Assembly: GCA_023248395.1 (NCBI GenBank)
Contig: JAHFEQ010000010.1
Location: 1 to 36,927 of the forward strand
DNA length: 36,927 nucleotides
Reading direction: 5' to 3'
Origin: Nitrospirota bacterium
Lineage (GTDB): Bacteria; Nitrospirota; 9FT-COMBO-42-15; HDB-SIOI813
Shown: positions 14,463 through 20,626 of the stretch, piece by piece
Numbering within the stretch: the stretch's first letter is position 1
Layout: every line of letters starts with the position of its first letter
Program-made: the position numbers and the translations under genes
The notes under the pieces: model-generated
Database searches by the model: none
What the model was told of the DNA's origin: nothing
The model's input: the letters and a program-made list of their open reading frames with translations, nothing else

Positions 14463-14505
14463 ATCAGACCTCAGACTAACTTCTTACCTCTAACTTCTTA
14501 CCTCC
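14463..14505. repeat. Degenerate 7-bp repeat array between the CNBD gene and nuoH
   Basis: On the minus strand, units of AGGTAAG and AAGTTAG alternate with a 7-base period, followed by TCTGAGG. The array contains the TAA stop codon of the CNBD gene and the purine-rich sequence ahead of the nuoH GTG start. The same heptamer family appears between nuoC and nuoD, between nuoF and nuoG, inside nuoG, and at the start of the TPR gene. Confidence 0.65.
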
Positions 14506-14968
14506 TTCTCCCCCACATATAATTGATCATCTCCAAATATCTTGCGTTCATCCCTCTGACAATAGAGTGGATATTAAATACAATATTTTTGAGCATCTTG
14601 TAAATCAACCTGGGGTGATTATCCACCAGGGTCTCAAAGTCATTCTTTTCTAAGACATACGCCTTCGTGTCTGCAATAGCAACGATGGTCGCTGAACGGG
14701 GTCTGCCGTCAAGAAAGGACATTTCCCCGAAGATATCTCCATCTTTATGCAGGGTCAGTGTCAACAGGTCTCCCTCCGGTGTCGCCTTGCAGGCCTTGAC
14801 CTCTCCCCTCTTGATGATGTAAAGGGACTGGCCGTCTTCACCCTCTCTGAATACGGTCGTCCCCAACTTGAAATCCTTTTCTTTTAATACCTTGGATACA
14901 ACATTCAACTCTTCATCATTCAACTCCACGAAGAAATGGATATCACTAAGTGATTTTGGGTCTATCAT
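14498..14968 (-). CDS. Cyclic nucleotide-binding-domain (CNBD/CAP_ED) protein inside the nuo operon
   Basis: This 156-aa cytoplasmic protein consists of one cNMP-binding domain. FREGEDGQSLYIIKRGEVKAC begins the beta roll, and FGEMSFLDGRPRSATIVA is a good phosphate-binding cassette with the conserved Glu and Arg. A helical C-terminal tail (about residues 115-156) follows, with no helix-turn-helix, so it is not a complete CRP-type regulator. It sits between nuoG and nuoH, where no complex I subunit is expected. It might sense a nucleotide and modulate the complex, or be a stray insertion. Its last residues (WGRRR) and TAA lie in the heptamer repeat array. Confidence 0.9.
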   Translation of the reverse strand: MIDPKSLSDIHFFVELNDEELNVVSKVLKEKDFKLGTTVFREGEDGQSLYIIKRGEVKACKATPEGDLLTLTLHKDGDIFGEMSFLDGRPRSATIVAIADTKAYVLEKNDFETLVDNHPRLIYKMLKNIVFNIHSIVRGMNARYLEMINYMWGRRR

Positions 14969-14987
14969 TTTAGTCTCCTGTCCCCCC

Positions 14988-17552
14988 TCACCCTGGCCCT
15001 CTCCCCTGAGGGGAGAGGGAAGAAAGTGGAAGTACCTTTACCCTTGGGAAACCTTTCCCCTTTGTAAAAAACATATTTACAGGGACATCCGTAAAATTCT
15101 CCGGGATAAAGACAACACCTCTTACCGATCTCTTGTTAATATGCGCTGTCAGTGTCGCCTCATACCGGTCCCCTTTGACCTTCACTTTGTCCCCCTTGCT
15201 AACCCCCATCGCCTTCGCGTCTTCTTCATTCATCTCTACAACGGCCTCTGGCAAGATATCCCGCAGTGTATCCGCCTTCAGAGAAAGCCTTCCTGAATGA
15301 TAGAGGTGATTCCCGGTAATCAGAATGAACGGATATTCAGGATCGGGGGTTTCTTGCTCCTGACTTCTGACTTCTGACTTAGGACGCAGGCTAAAGCCTG
15401 CGACTACACCAGCCCCCTGACCCCCGATCCCTGATCCCTTGACTATCGCTCCGTTCCCATCTAAGCCCTCAAAATCTATCCCGCGATACATCGGTACAGC
15501 CCCTTTTATCTCTTTAAAGATGTCTGATACAGACCCATAGTGGAATGAGGGTTCCACGGCCTCGCCTATGGAAGCGATGATCTCCCAGTCCGCCTTTGCA
15601 TCCCCCTGAGGCTCGATAAACTTCCGTAATCTCTGGACCCTCCCTTCCTGATTCGTAAAGGTCCCGTCTTTTTCAACAAAGCTTGCCCCTGGCAGGACGA
15701 CATGGGCCATCTTAGCGGTCTCTGTGAGGAATATGTCCTGGACGATAAGAAATTTGACCTGGCGAAGGGCTTCTCTTACAAACCCTCCATCCGGGAAATC
15801 AGAGACGATGTCTTCACCGACGACATACAAGGCACCCACCTCTCCCCTTGAAGCCGCGTCTATGATCCCCTCAGATCCTAAACCATCCCCATCCCTGAAA
15901 CTATAGCCAGGCAGGATATCCGGATGTACCCCCATCTCCCAGGCCCCCCTCTGGTTTGCCCTGTCAAAAACCGGGAAGAGTTTAACATCCTTACCGAGGA
16001 GACGCAAGGCCTCTGCGAGGATATGCATGGATTCTATTCGCGAAGGACCCCGTAATACATCGTTCCCTACTGCGATTGTTATAGAATTCGCGGATAACAT
16101 AAACCCTGACACAGACTCAATGCTGCTCCAGTCTGTCCATGTCAAATCTGGAATATTCTCCCTGGAAATATTTTTAAGATGCTCCTTGCCGGTTAAATCT
16201 TTTAACTTATCCATGTTCTTATCATAAATCACCTTTGCGATTCCGCCGAGGATATCCCCCTCGGCAGCCGGTCTATGCCGCAGGCTCAGGGTCGCTGAGC
16301 TGTCAAGCTTCAGTCCCCTCGGAGAGGCTATGATGATATTCATCTTCTTGTTTCTGGATAAGCGCCTGATGAGATAATCTGTGATAGGATTCTCATCTGA
16401 GATACTCGAACCTATAATGAATAGCGTATCTGCATTTAAGGCGTCATAGACAGATATGCCGCCCTTGTTTAATTCCATGACATTTGCAAAGGACTTCACC
16501 GCACCCGTATTCCATCTGCTGCCGGAGTCTATATTGTTTGTCTTGAAGACCCCTCTCATCAACTTCTGAAATAGGTACAGCTCCTCGTTCGAGAGTCTGC
16601 CTGAGGCAATACCGCCGGTCTTTCTCCCATCTTTCATGGCCTCAGTCAGGCCATCCTTTATCGCCTTGAGGGCCTCGTTCCATGGGACTGGTTCAAGGGT
16701 ACCCCCTTTTCTAATCATCGGAGTCACGAACCTTTCATGGCTATTGATAAAGGAGTATCCAAATCTCCCCCTGGCACACAATGTCTCGTTATTGATCCCT
16801 TTATCCGGTTTTGATATCACCCTTAAGATCTCGCCGTTCCTTGCCTGCACCGTCAACTGACAGCCAGTGCCGCAGTAGGTGCATACCGTATCGACCCCCT
16901 TCAGATCCCACGGCCTTGACTGGTATCGATAGGGCCTGCTCATCAGGGAGCCTACCGGACAAACCTCGATGCAATTTCCGCAGTGATCACAGTCTAAGTA
17001 CTCCTTTACGAAGCTCGTCTCCCCTGTCTTCGCACCGCGTTCAATGGAGCCGAGTACACTGGCACCCACAACCTCATCACAGATACGGACACACCGCTTA
17101 CACTGGATACACCGGTTGATATTTTGAATAATGACCGGGCTTAAGATATAGTCTTCCTCATGGAATCGCCTCTTCCTCTCACCAAAGGGGCTATTCCGGG
17201 GCCCGAACTTGAAGGTCACATCCTGCAGCTCGCACTCCCCGCCTTTGTCACAGACCGGACAATCGAGCGGATGATTTGCGAGGAGGAGCTCGATCATGGA
17301 CGATCTTGCAGACTTCACAACAGGAGATTCTGTCAGGACCTCCATCCCATGCATCACGGGCGTCACACAGGACGGCTGAAGTTTCTTCTGCCCGACGATC
17401 TCCACAAGGCAGACCCTGCAGGAGGCAAGTTTGCTGAGTCTGGCGTGATAGCACATGGTAGGGATATCAAACCCTGCGCCCTTCGCTGCCTCAAGGATCA
17501 GTGTACCATCCTCTACTGTAATCTCTTTCCCATTGATTTTTACTGTTGCCAT
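14988..17552 (-). CDS. nuoG: NADH-quinone oxidoreductase subunit G, with in-frame repeat insertions
   Basis: NuoG is the largest peripheral-arm subunit and carries the electron wire from NuoF/NuoE. The 854-aa protein has an N-terminal [2Fe-2S] domain (Cys34, 45, 48, 62), the N5 motif His94-x3-Cys98-x2-Cys101-x5-Cys107, two ferredoxin-like motifs (CIQCKRCVRIC and CDHCGNCIEVCP), the N7-type CX2CX3CX27C starting CTYCGTGC, and a degenerate molybdopterin-oxidoreductase-like body. Residues about 705-736 are encoded by a mosaic of three dispersed repeat families read in frame. They form a Gly/Pro/charged linker just before the C-terminal dinucleotide-binding-like domain. The last ~14 residues (SSLSPQGRGPG) and the TGA come from a fourth repeat. 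The start is ATG at 17552, behind a heptamer array. Confidence 0.96.
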   Translation of the reverse strand: MATVKINGKEITVEDGTLILEAAKGAGFDIPTMCYHARLSKLASCRVCLVEIVGQKKLQPSCVTPVMHGMEVLTESPVVKSARSSMIELLLANHPLDCPVCDKGGECELQDVTFKFGPRNSPFGERKRRFHEEDYILSPVIIQNINRCIQCKRCVRICDEVVGASVLGSIERGAKTGETSFVKEYLDCDHCGNCIEVCPVGSLMSRPYRYQSRPWDLKGVDTVCTYCGTGCQLTVQARNGEILRVISKPDKGINNETLCARGRFGYSFINSHERFVTPMIRKGGTLEPVPWNEALKAIKDGLTEAMKDGRKTGGIASGRLSNEELYLFQKLMRGVFKTNNIDSGSRWNTGAVKSFANVMELNKGGISVYDALNADTLFIIGSSISDENPITDYLIRRLSRNKKMNIIIASPRGLKLDSSATLSLRHRPAAEGDILGGIAKVIYDKNMDKLKDLTGKEHLKNISRENIPDLTWTDWSSIESVSGFMLSANSITIAVGNDVLRGPSRIESMHILAEALRLLGKDVKLFPVFDRANQRGAWEMGVHPDILPGYSFRDGDGLGSEGIIDAASRGEVGALYVVGEDIVSDFPDGGFVREALRQVKFLIVQDIFLTETAKMAHVVLPGASFVEKDGTFTNQEGRVQRLRKFIEPQGDAKADWEIIASIGEAVEPSFHYGSVSDIFKEIKGAVPMYRGIDFEGLDGNGAIVKGSGIGGQGAGVVAGFSLRPKSEVRSQEQETPDPEYPFILITGNHLYHSGRLSLKADTLRDILPEAVVEMNEEDAKAMGVSKGDKVKVKGDRYEATLTAHINKRSVRGVVFIPENFTDVPVNMFFTKGKGFPRVKVLPLSSLSPQGRGPG
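14997..15019. repeat. Palindromic repeat CCCTCTCCCC-N3-GGGGAGAGGG at the 3' end of nuoG
   Basis: A perfect 10-bp-arm palindrome lies inside the last codons of nuoG. Together with the adjoining CCAGGGTGAGGGG it encodes PQGRGPG and the TGA stop. The composition and structure suggest a dispersed repeat element rather than ancestral nuoG sequence. It could also fold in the mRNA between nuoG and the CNBD gene. Confidence 0.7.
15346..15450. repeat. Mosaic of three repeat families read in frame within nuoG
   Basis: Three elements abut inside the coding sequence: a heptamer array (three TGACTTC-type units, 15361-15381), one copy of the palindrome CGCAGGCTAAAGCCTGCG with its ACTAC tail (15385-15407), and a CCCCGATCCCTGATCCC-type degenerate array (about 15410-15440, with a related CGATCC piece near 15348). 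All three types look intergenic in character, yet the nuoG frame is kept through the block. Translation is VVAGFSLRPKSEVRSQEQE with Gly-rich flanks. Confidence 0.75.
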
Positions 17553-17556
17553 GATT

Positions 17557-17637
17557 TCTGACTTCTAACCTCTTACTTCTAACGCAGGCTAAAGCCTGCG
17601 ACTACCTACCTGCTAAAGCCTGCGACTACCTACCTGC
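17557..17637. repeat. Heptamer array plus tandem GCAGGCTAAAGCCTGC repeats between nuoF and nuoG
   Basis: The gap contains a degenerate heptamer array (17557-17582) ahead of the nuoG start, a full palindrome copy with ACTAC tail (17583-17605), and a second copy lacking the left arm (17613-17629) separated by CTACCTG. The TAG in the second copy's tail is the nuoF stop. The heptamer array provides the AGAGG-like sequence upstream of the nuoG ATG. Confidence 0.75.
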
Positions 17638-18900
17638 ACCATTCACCATACATCTCTTGTTTTTTACATGGTACTCAAACTCTTCTTTAAAATTGTTGAT
17701 AGCCCCCCTGAGGGCCATCACAGCGCCATCGCCGAGGGGACAGAATGTACGGCCAAAGACATCTCCGCAGAGTTTAAGGAGGAGGTCAATATCCCCTTCT
17801 TTTCCTTCTCCATGCTCTACCCTCCGCATGACTTTCACAATCCAGTCAAGCCCCTCCCGGCATGGGGTGCACTTTCCGCATGACTCGTGGTGGAAAAATT
17901 CATGGATAATCAGGGCCGCCTTCACGATGCACGTCCTCTCATCCATCACCACGACTGCCCCGCTCCCCAGCATCGTCCCCTTTGCGGCAAGAGAGTCAAA
18001 GTCCATCGGCGTATCCAGATCCTTTTCAATAAGCATCGGCGCTGACACTCCACCAGGGATGACCGCCTTCAATCTTCTGTCCCCTTTGATACCCCCGGCA
18101 TAGGTATAGATAATTTCCCGCAAAGGAGTCCCCATCGGGAGTTCATAGAGGCCGGGTTTGTTGACATGCCCGCTTACCCCGAACAACTTTGGTCCAGGGC
18201 TTTTAGCCGGTCCAATAGAGGCAAACCAGCTTGCGCCCCTGTTAATAATGTGCGGGACACAGGCAAGGGTCTCTACATTATTGATGACCGTCGGTTTACC
18301 AAAGAGACCGACCTGGGCCGGGAAGGGTGGCTTTATCCTCGGCAAGGCCCGCCGTCCCTCCAATGACTCAAGAAGGGCCGTCTCCTCACCGCAGATATAG
18401 GCCCCGGCGCCCCTGTGGACATAAATATTGAGACTGAAATTGCTGCCCAGGATATTCTTCCCTAAATATCCTTTGGAATAGGCCTCCCGGATCGCGTCTT
18501 CCAGTCTGTCAGCGCCAAGGGCAAATTCTCCCCTGATATAGATGTATGCGTTAGCGGCGCCTATGGCATAGCAGGCAATCGCCATCCCCTCGATGAGCTG
18601 ATGAGGGTCCTTTTCAATGATCGCCCTGTCTTTATAGGTCCCTGGCTCACCCTCATCCGCATTACAGCAGAGATATTTCGGAATGGTGGGATCCTTTGGA
18701 ATAAAACTCCACTTAAGACCTGTAGAAAATCCAGCCCCTCCGCGTCCCCTTAAACCAGAGTCTTTGACCATCTGGATGATCGTATCCGTATTTAACTTAA
18801 GGGCCTTTTTAAATGCCTGATAACCACCATTGTTAAGATAGGTCTCTATCTTAAAGGAGTCGGGGACATTGATATTTTTCAGGATAATGGGTTCAAACAT
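17626..18900 (-). CDS. nuoF: NADH-quinone oxidoreductase subunit F (NADH/FMN-binding)
   Basis: NuoF oxidises NADH through FMN and passes electrons to cluster N3. The 424-aa protein has the FMN/NADH-binding glycine-rich motifs GLRGRGGAGFSTGLKW (about residues 49-64) and GAGAYICGEETALLESLEG (about 165-183), and the N3 motif SCGKCTPCREG with a distal Cys in TFCPLGDGA. Length is normal. The C-terminus ends VNGAGR, and its TAG falls in a copy of the CTAAAGCCTGCGACTAC repeat, so the final few residues may be repeat-derived. The start lies 9 bp after nuoE. Confidence 0.97.
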   Translation of the reverse strand: MFEPIILKNINVPDSFKIETYLNNGGYQAFKKALKLNTDTIIQMVKDSGLRGRGGAGFSTGLKWSFIPKDPTIPKYLCCNADEGEPGTYKDRAIIEKDPHQLIEGMAIACYAIGAANAYIYIRGEFALGADRLEDAIREAYSKGYLGKNILGSNFSLNIYVHRGAGAYICGEETALLESLEGRRALPRIKPPFPAQVGLFGKPTVINNVETLACVPHIINRGASWFASIGPAKSPGPKLFGVSGHVNKPGLYELPMGTPLREIIYTYAGGIKGDRRLKAVIPGGVSAPMLIEKDLDTPMDFDSLAAKGTMLGSGAVVVMDERTCIVKAALIIHEFFHHESCGKCTPCREGLDWIVKVMRRVEHGEGKEGDIDLLLKLCGDVFGRTFCPLGDGAVMALRGAINNFKEEFEYHVKNKRCMVNGAGR

Positions 18901-20577: not shown

Positions 20578-20626
20578 ACTTTCTTACCTCTTACTTCTAA
20601 CTTCTAACTTCTATAACTTCTTCTCC
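20578..20626. repeat. Degenerate 7-bp repeat array between nuoC and nuoD
   Basis: On the minus strand (GAAGTTA)-type units repeat with a period of seven (GTTAGAA, GTTAGAA, GTAAGAG, GTAAGAA). The TAG stop codon of nuoC and its last codons (EKKL) lie in the array, as does the purine-rich stretch ahead of nuoD. The short unit, degenerate copies and absence of unique spacers rule out CRISPR. Confidence 0.7.

Follow-up and report, generated by a model that had tools for sequence, protein, structure and literature searches.

Part of contig C106 in a 2.01-Mb draft genome (119 contigs, 95% complete) was analysed here as a 36,927-nucleotide stretch, which we refer to as the window. The nearest named relatives of this genome are Nitrospirae MAGs, mostly from groundwater, and what we say of the species is based on this single draft genome and on its DNA sequence alone. 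Among the genes of the window is nuoG, whose product carries Fer2_4, NADH-G_4Fe-4S_3, Molybdop_Fe4S4, Molybdopterin (PF00384, residues 274-664) and Molydop_binding (PF01568, residues 742-829) domains. Within the nuo cluster, nuoH and nuoG are separated by the gene for a cyclic-nucleotide-binding domain protein (14498-14968). Within the nuoG coding sequence, a heptamer array, a palindrome with an ACTAC tail, and a CCCTGAT-type array adjoin one another, and the reading frame remains open across all of them (VVAGFSLRPKSEVRSQEQE). This arrangement had been described in a first-pass annotation of the DNA and is borne out by the sequence, by TRF, and by the open frame. That annotation had also placed the repeats in an interdomain linker, which is correct, with coordinates that were slightly off; alignment with relatives gives the limits listed in Table 1.

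Table 1. Features of nuoG and of the repeats within and beside it (positions in the window).
Feature	Position	Strand	Evidence or remark
nuoG (NADH-quinone oxidoreductase subunit G)	14988..17552	(-)	854 aa; Pfam domains given in the text
Repeat-derived interdomain linker, NuoG residues 705-739, KGSGIGGQGAGVVAGFSLRPKSEVRSQEQETPDPE	~15336..15438	(-)	Alignment with relatives; between PF00384 and PF01568
Array of heptamers (three CTGACTT units and one degenerate TTAGGAC), coding ~PKSEVRSQE	15358..15384	(-)	TRF, genome pattern counts, phase analysis
GTAG-tagged REP palindrome, coding VVAGFSLR (residues 716-723)	15385..15407	(-)	72 exact genome copies; GTAG-type tag on 70/73
G-rich array of heptamers (CCCTGAT type when read on the + strand), coding ~KGSGIGGQG	15415..15439	(-)	TRF: local tandem, 3.6 copies, 83% match
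Different dispersed repeat (CCCTCTCCCC...GGGGAGAGGG), encoding an extra NuoG C-terminal tail around LSSLSPQGRGPG	14974..15023	(-)	Matches on C81, C47, C57, C108, C78
Second heptamer+REP compound copy and a 24-nt tandem partial REP (GCTAAAGCCTGCGACTACCTACCT x2)	17552..17637	(+)	Directly upstream of the nuoG start

The palindrome itself (CGCAGGCTAAAGCCTGCG) occupies 15385-15402, with the ACTAC tail at 15403-15407. Read on the nuoG coding strand, the element consists of a GTAG tag, one base (T), a 7-bp stem (CGCAGGC/GCCTGCG), and a 4-nt loop (TTTA). Exact copies of the palindrome are spread over many contigs of the ~2.0-Mb genome in both orientations, compared with none for the reversed control, and a genome-wide count of the heptamer pattern likewise gave 79 matches versus 1 in the control. 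Within the window, allowing up to three mismatches, the palindrome occurs at three places, each on both strands, versus 0.04 matches expected. A relaxed REP core recovers 73 copies here, whereas none of 147 other genomes from the phylum has more than 14; the tail G[GA]CTAC is present in 68 of the 73, and head-to-head pairs among them comprise 10 heterodimers with a REP of CGCAACC stem and 7 homodimer pairs. Published GTAG REPs have stems of 5-13 bp and loops of 2-20 (Table 1 of PMC3733652). With an unpaired tag at one end, stem and loop of suitable size, dispersed copies, and head-to-head dimers, the element is a GTAG-tagged REP, and its anatomy matches that of the published ones (PMC3733652, PMC2817692). 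The REP-flank sequence that a cognate RAYT would carry is GTAGYCGCAGGC.

The heptamer array runs straight into the palindrome, and its three CTGACTT units (15360-15380) match one another at 100% in TRF. Arrays of the TTCTNAC type number about 41 in the genome, and heptamer arrays adjoin a REP in nine cases, compared with 0.14 expected and a maximum of three in 2000 simulations. All nine are on the strand of the REP, eight lie on one common side, and in these eight the gap between array and REP is -1 or 6, which amounts to a single phase. A period-7 signal is also found just upstream of the REP in 12 of the 73 copies, versus 0.8% of random positions. Because they are phase-locked, the heptamers and the REP form one compound unit and not two independent families. 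The first-pass annotation had counted three dispersed families in the linker; only two are seen, the REP and the heptamers, joined as one unit, and dispersal of the CCCTGAT-type array is unsupported, no such family having been found in the sampled loci of the genome. It had also noted palindrome and heptamers outside genes in the window. In the compound copy upstream of the nuoG start, the segment 17558-17605, located 2.2 kb from the linker, is 88% identical to the linker copy over 48 nt. REP-free arrays of TTCTNAC heptamers lie between genes at 14476-14504 and 20581-20613.

With the linker at the centre of a 401-nt query, 51 other places in the genome gave a match, in every case to the interval 15349-15420 and never to the flanks outside it. 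When nuoG and its edges (14960-17640) were used as the query, the only intervals matching elsewhere were 14974-15023, 15349-15420, and 17552-17629, and the remaining body of nuoG had no match elsewhere in the genome. The first of these intervals encodes the C-terminal tail, which is missing from the NuoG of most relatives in the alignment. One relative (L034) has a repeat-like NuoG tail of its own (PHPIPPPYRGREKGRG). In an AlphaFold model built on 22 sequences (mean pLDDT 74), linker residues 708-734 have a pLDDT below 50, with better-predicted parts on both sides, as do residues 846-854 of the repeat-derived tail. The N-terminal Fe-S region of NuoG is likewise poorly predicted, so that low pLDDT is by itself not specific to the linker. 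The predicted tryptic peptide that would reveal translation of the REP is GSGIGGQGAGVVAGFSLRPK.

At least 27 in-frame peptides encoded by REPs were counted in 14 genes, most of them VAAGFSLRP; the count includes a few near-variants of the exact REP. Among the products of these genes are RecX, an MMPL transporter, ProRS, a GmhB-GT9 fusion, a radical-SAM/PCP_red protein, an FG-GAP/ASPIC protein, and TPR membrane proteins. According to Pfam, the REPs lie between domains in ProRS, GmhB-GT9, and the radical-SAM/PCP_red protein, just before the editing domain in the first and at the junction in the second. The frames used, in the proportion 17:6:4, are exactly the three that are free of stops. Forward copies are always read as VAAGFSLR (17), the single open frame of three, and reverse copies as RRLKPAAT (6) or TQAKACGY (4), the two open frames; the element thus filters its own frames through the stop codons that it contains. 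A cluster of paralogous TPR membrane proteins (L122 and L123, on G000:C102) carries up to six exact REPs per protein, in all three open frames. In prolyl-tRNA synthetase (L110), two REP families, encoding VAAGFSLRPQ and GTDLQVCP, seem to lie next to each other in the linker that precedes the editing domain. Several candidates were set aside. Creation of the GmhB-GT9 fusion by the REP was rejected, as relatives share the same fused frame, an SHMT with an N-terminal REP was left out of the count because its likely start lies after the REP, and short ORFs over REPs (L007, L008, L013, L112, L113, L124, L127) were regarded as spurious.

When aligned with relatives, the NuoG linker is hypervariable between two conserved blocks. 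Distant NuoG linkers have 23-25 residues of unrelated sequence, compared with 35 here, and this REP is absent from the NuoG linker of all relatives examined. A distant linker of matching length and sequence, which would have told against an insertion, was therefore not seen among them. The first-pass annotation had proposed a lineage-specific insertion; lineage-specific repeat DNA has become protein here, but not as a single clean insertion, and with a net lengthening of only about 10 residues the native linker sequence was probably lost or replaced in the process. Nor does its picture of a single case in one enzyme hold, with the REP translated in at least 14 genes and the relatives refilling the same linker with other repeats.

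The linker DNA of each relative, extended by 120 nt of nuoG in both directions, was searched against the genomes of the family. In five relatives (G002, G003, G004, G005, and G006), the linker DNA matches many places in their own genome, and the 120-nt flanks match nuoG only, among the matches listed. The linker repeat is a 76-nt element present at dozens of places in G002, a palindrome (GTAGGGGAGGGGCTTGTCCCCTCCC) with heptamers in G003, two repeat families in G004, and GGGACAGATTTGAAATCTGTCCC in both G005 and G006. G002 and G003 belong to one genus yet have different repeats, so turnover is faster than within-genus divergence. Dispersed matches were also obtained for the linkers of Deltaproteobacteria (L036-L040 and L051). 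Most are to heptamer arrays, and in L040 there is a repeat with roughly a dozen copies; some of these cases are weaker, as they involve low-complexity heptamer matches. The linkers of L035, L087, L088, L041, and L044 are negatives, with no dispersed repeat among the matches listed. A heptamer array of the GGGGTCA type occupies the NuoG linker of L036, L039, and L040, which belong to another phylum, at the position that the G-rich array has here.

We consider it likely that the NuoG linker is a translated compound repeat, that amplified REPs are retained in frame in flexible connectors, and that these connectors are repeatedly overwritten in each lineage. This reading draws on the copy number, the in-frame translation, the linker position, and the different repeats found at the same linker in relatives. 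A GTAG REP phase-locked to a heptamer array has been amplified genome-wide in this lineage; insertion would have been widespread, with selection leaving only tolerated in-frame copies in flexible connectors. Because only such copies would survive, connectors would be overwritten again and again, and the one joining the molybdopterin-fold domain of NuoG to its C-terminal domain would be filled by whichever repeat is active in a given lineage. The insertions were presumably near-neutral, and copies may have spread through a RAYT-type single-strand transposase that the genome has since lost or the assembly lacks, or else through recombination among the repeats. We infer mobility of the repeats rather than observe it, since the search for a Y1/RAYT transposase (Y1_Tnp, PF01797) gave no hit in this 95% complete genome. 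Among 10 genomes of the family, 7 contain PF01797; a strict pattern search found no GTAG palindromes near the sampled Y1 genes of relatives, and no empty-site pair or target duplication was seen. REPtrons may be lost (PMC3733652).

As an alternative to REP transposition, turnover of the linker might be due chiefly to recombination or gene conversion among repeats together with heptamer slippage, with the upstream copy as a possible donor. We regard this as possible but rather unlikely. The nearby compound copy at 17558-17605, a genome without a transposase, heptamer arrays phase-locked to REPs, and the small net change in length are all in keeping with it. However, the copies elsewhere in the genome that match the linker copy best lie on different contigs (C102, C98, C85), and slippage alone cannot scatter REPs over many contigs in both orientations. 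It is improbable that the repeat has been kept for a function in nuoG, such as pausing of translation between domains by a hairpin in the mRNA, or provision of a useful peptide in the linker. The perfect palindrome could form its 7-bp stem and 4-nt loop exactly between two domains, but the whole region folds no better than shuffles (z = 0.46), relatives have unrelated repeats or none, and, because the 72 copies are identical, the perfection of the palindrome fits recent amplification. An artefact of assembly or binning, in which a contig was joined at a repeat, might be suspected in a draft genome of 119 contigs with many repeats, but it is very improbable in view of the collinear nuoG on both sides (about 79% identical to the nearest relatives), the intact frame, and the different repeats at the same place in relatives. 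Least credible is an ordinary ancestral linker with a chance resemblance to repeats: a variable linker is found here in all NuoG homologues examined (23-25 residues in distant ones), and the GGGGTCA arrays at the same place in L036, L039, and L040 make this possible for the G-rich array, but the 51 matches confined to the linker and the absence of the reversed control palindrome from the genome refute it for the REP and heptamers, and each relative has different repeats.

The translated compound repeat can be compared with several known systems. GTAG REPs occur in many copies, form head-to-head dimers, and in some cases lie entirely inside ORFs (Di Nocera et al. 2013, PMC3733652). The recB genes of two Xanthomonas species carry different REPs at about the same site, and flexible linkers have been suggested as places that tolerate intragenic REPs (PMC3733652). 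The element described here has the tag, stem, loop, copy number, head-to-head dimers, and intragenic copies in common with those REPs. It differs in having a heptamer array fused to the REP at constant phase. In addition, at least 14 genes carry a translated REP in a 2-Mb genome of Nitrospirota type, a group unmentioned in that paper, and unrelated repeat families refill one and the same linker in different genera and in another phylum. Similar to Rickettsia palindromic elements (RPEs), which are palindromic selfish DNA found in frame in many unrelated metabolic genes and encoding a conserved peptide (Ogata et al. 2000, 2002, reviewed in PMC10969869), the in-frame palindrome here yields a VAAGFSLRP-type peptide in unrelated genes (ProRS, RecX, MMPL, NuoG, and others). 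Compared by description, an RPE measures about 150 bp (PMC10969869), whereas the REP measures ~23 bp, or 50-60 bp with its heptamers. REP-RAYT systems and BIMEs (Nunvar et al. 2010, PMC2817692) share the GTAG head, the palindrome, the high copy number, and the inverted pairs; in contrast to them, this genome has no RAYT, and a large fraction of the copies appears to lie inside genes, whereas REPs are mostly extragenic. The TAACTGA heptameric repeats of Beggiatoaceae (PMC4679880) are 7-nt direct repeats at many places in one genome, as here, whereas the unit here is TTCTNAC and is joined to a REP at fixed phase.

Intragenic GTAG REPs, their possible lodging in flexible linkers, and the same-site case of recB are thus already known (PMC3733652), as are in-frame RPEs (PMC10969869). 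As far as the open PMC literature shows, the heptamer-REP compound is new, as is so large a number of translated copies in a small genome from this group. New above all is that a single linker has been filled time and again by unrelated repeat families, in different genera and in another phylum. The wider question addressed is the role of intragenic REPs and RPEs in protein evolution. In one core respiratory enzyme, six genomes from a single bacterial family have the same linker filled with at least five unrelated families of repeats. They offer a natural series in which to ask whether selfish repeats regularly supply linker sequence, how fast such repeats turn over, and whether they carry any cost. 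More tentatively, interdomain linkers of core enzymes in this family might be continually rebuilt from the genomes' own dispersed repeats, with selfish repeats as the main raw material of linker evolution and heptamer arrays possibly acting as landing pads for REPs. Alignments and annotations of such linkers should be read with caution, as they reflect repeats and not homology.

ProRS and GmhB-GT9 seem to behave like NuoG. In relatives, the linkers of these two proteins contain the repeat-like peptides SEVRSQKSE, PPFSKGE/PPLEKGG, and AVSSKQLA, with heptamer or PPLEKGG-type peptides in the ProRS linker before the editing domain. The 76-nt NuoG-linker repeat of G002 also matches within the GmhB-GT9 gene of the same genome (C76:4431-4514, inside C76:4012-5055).
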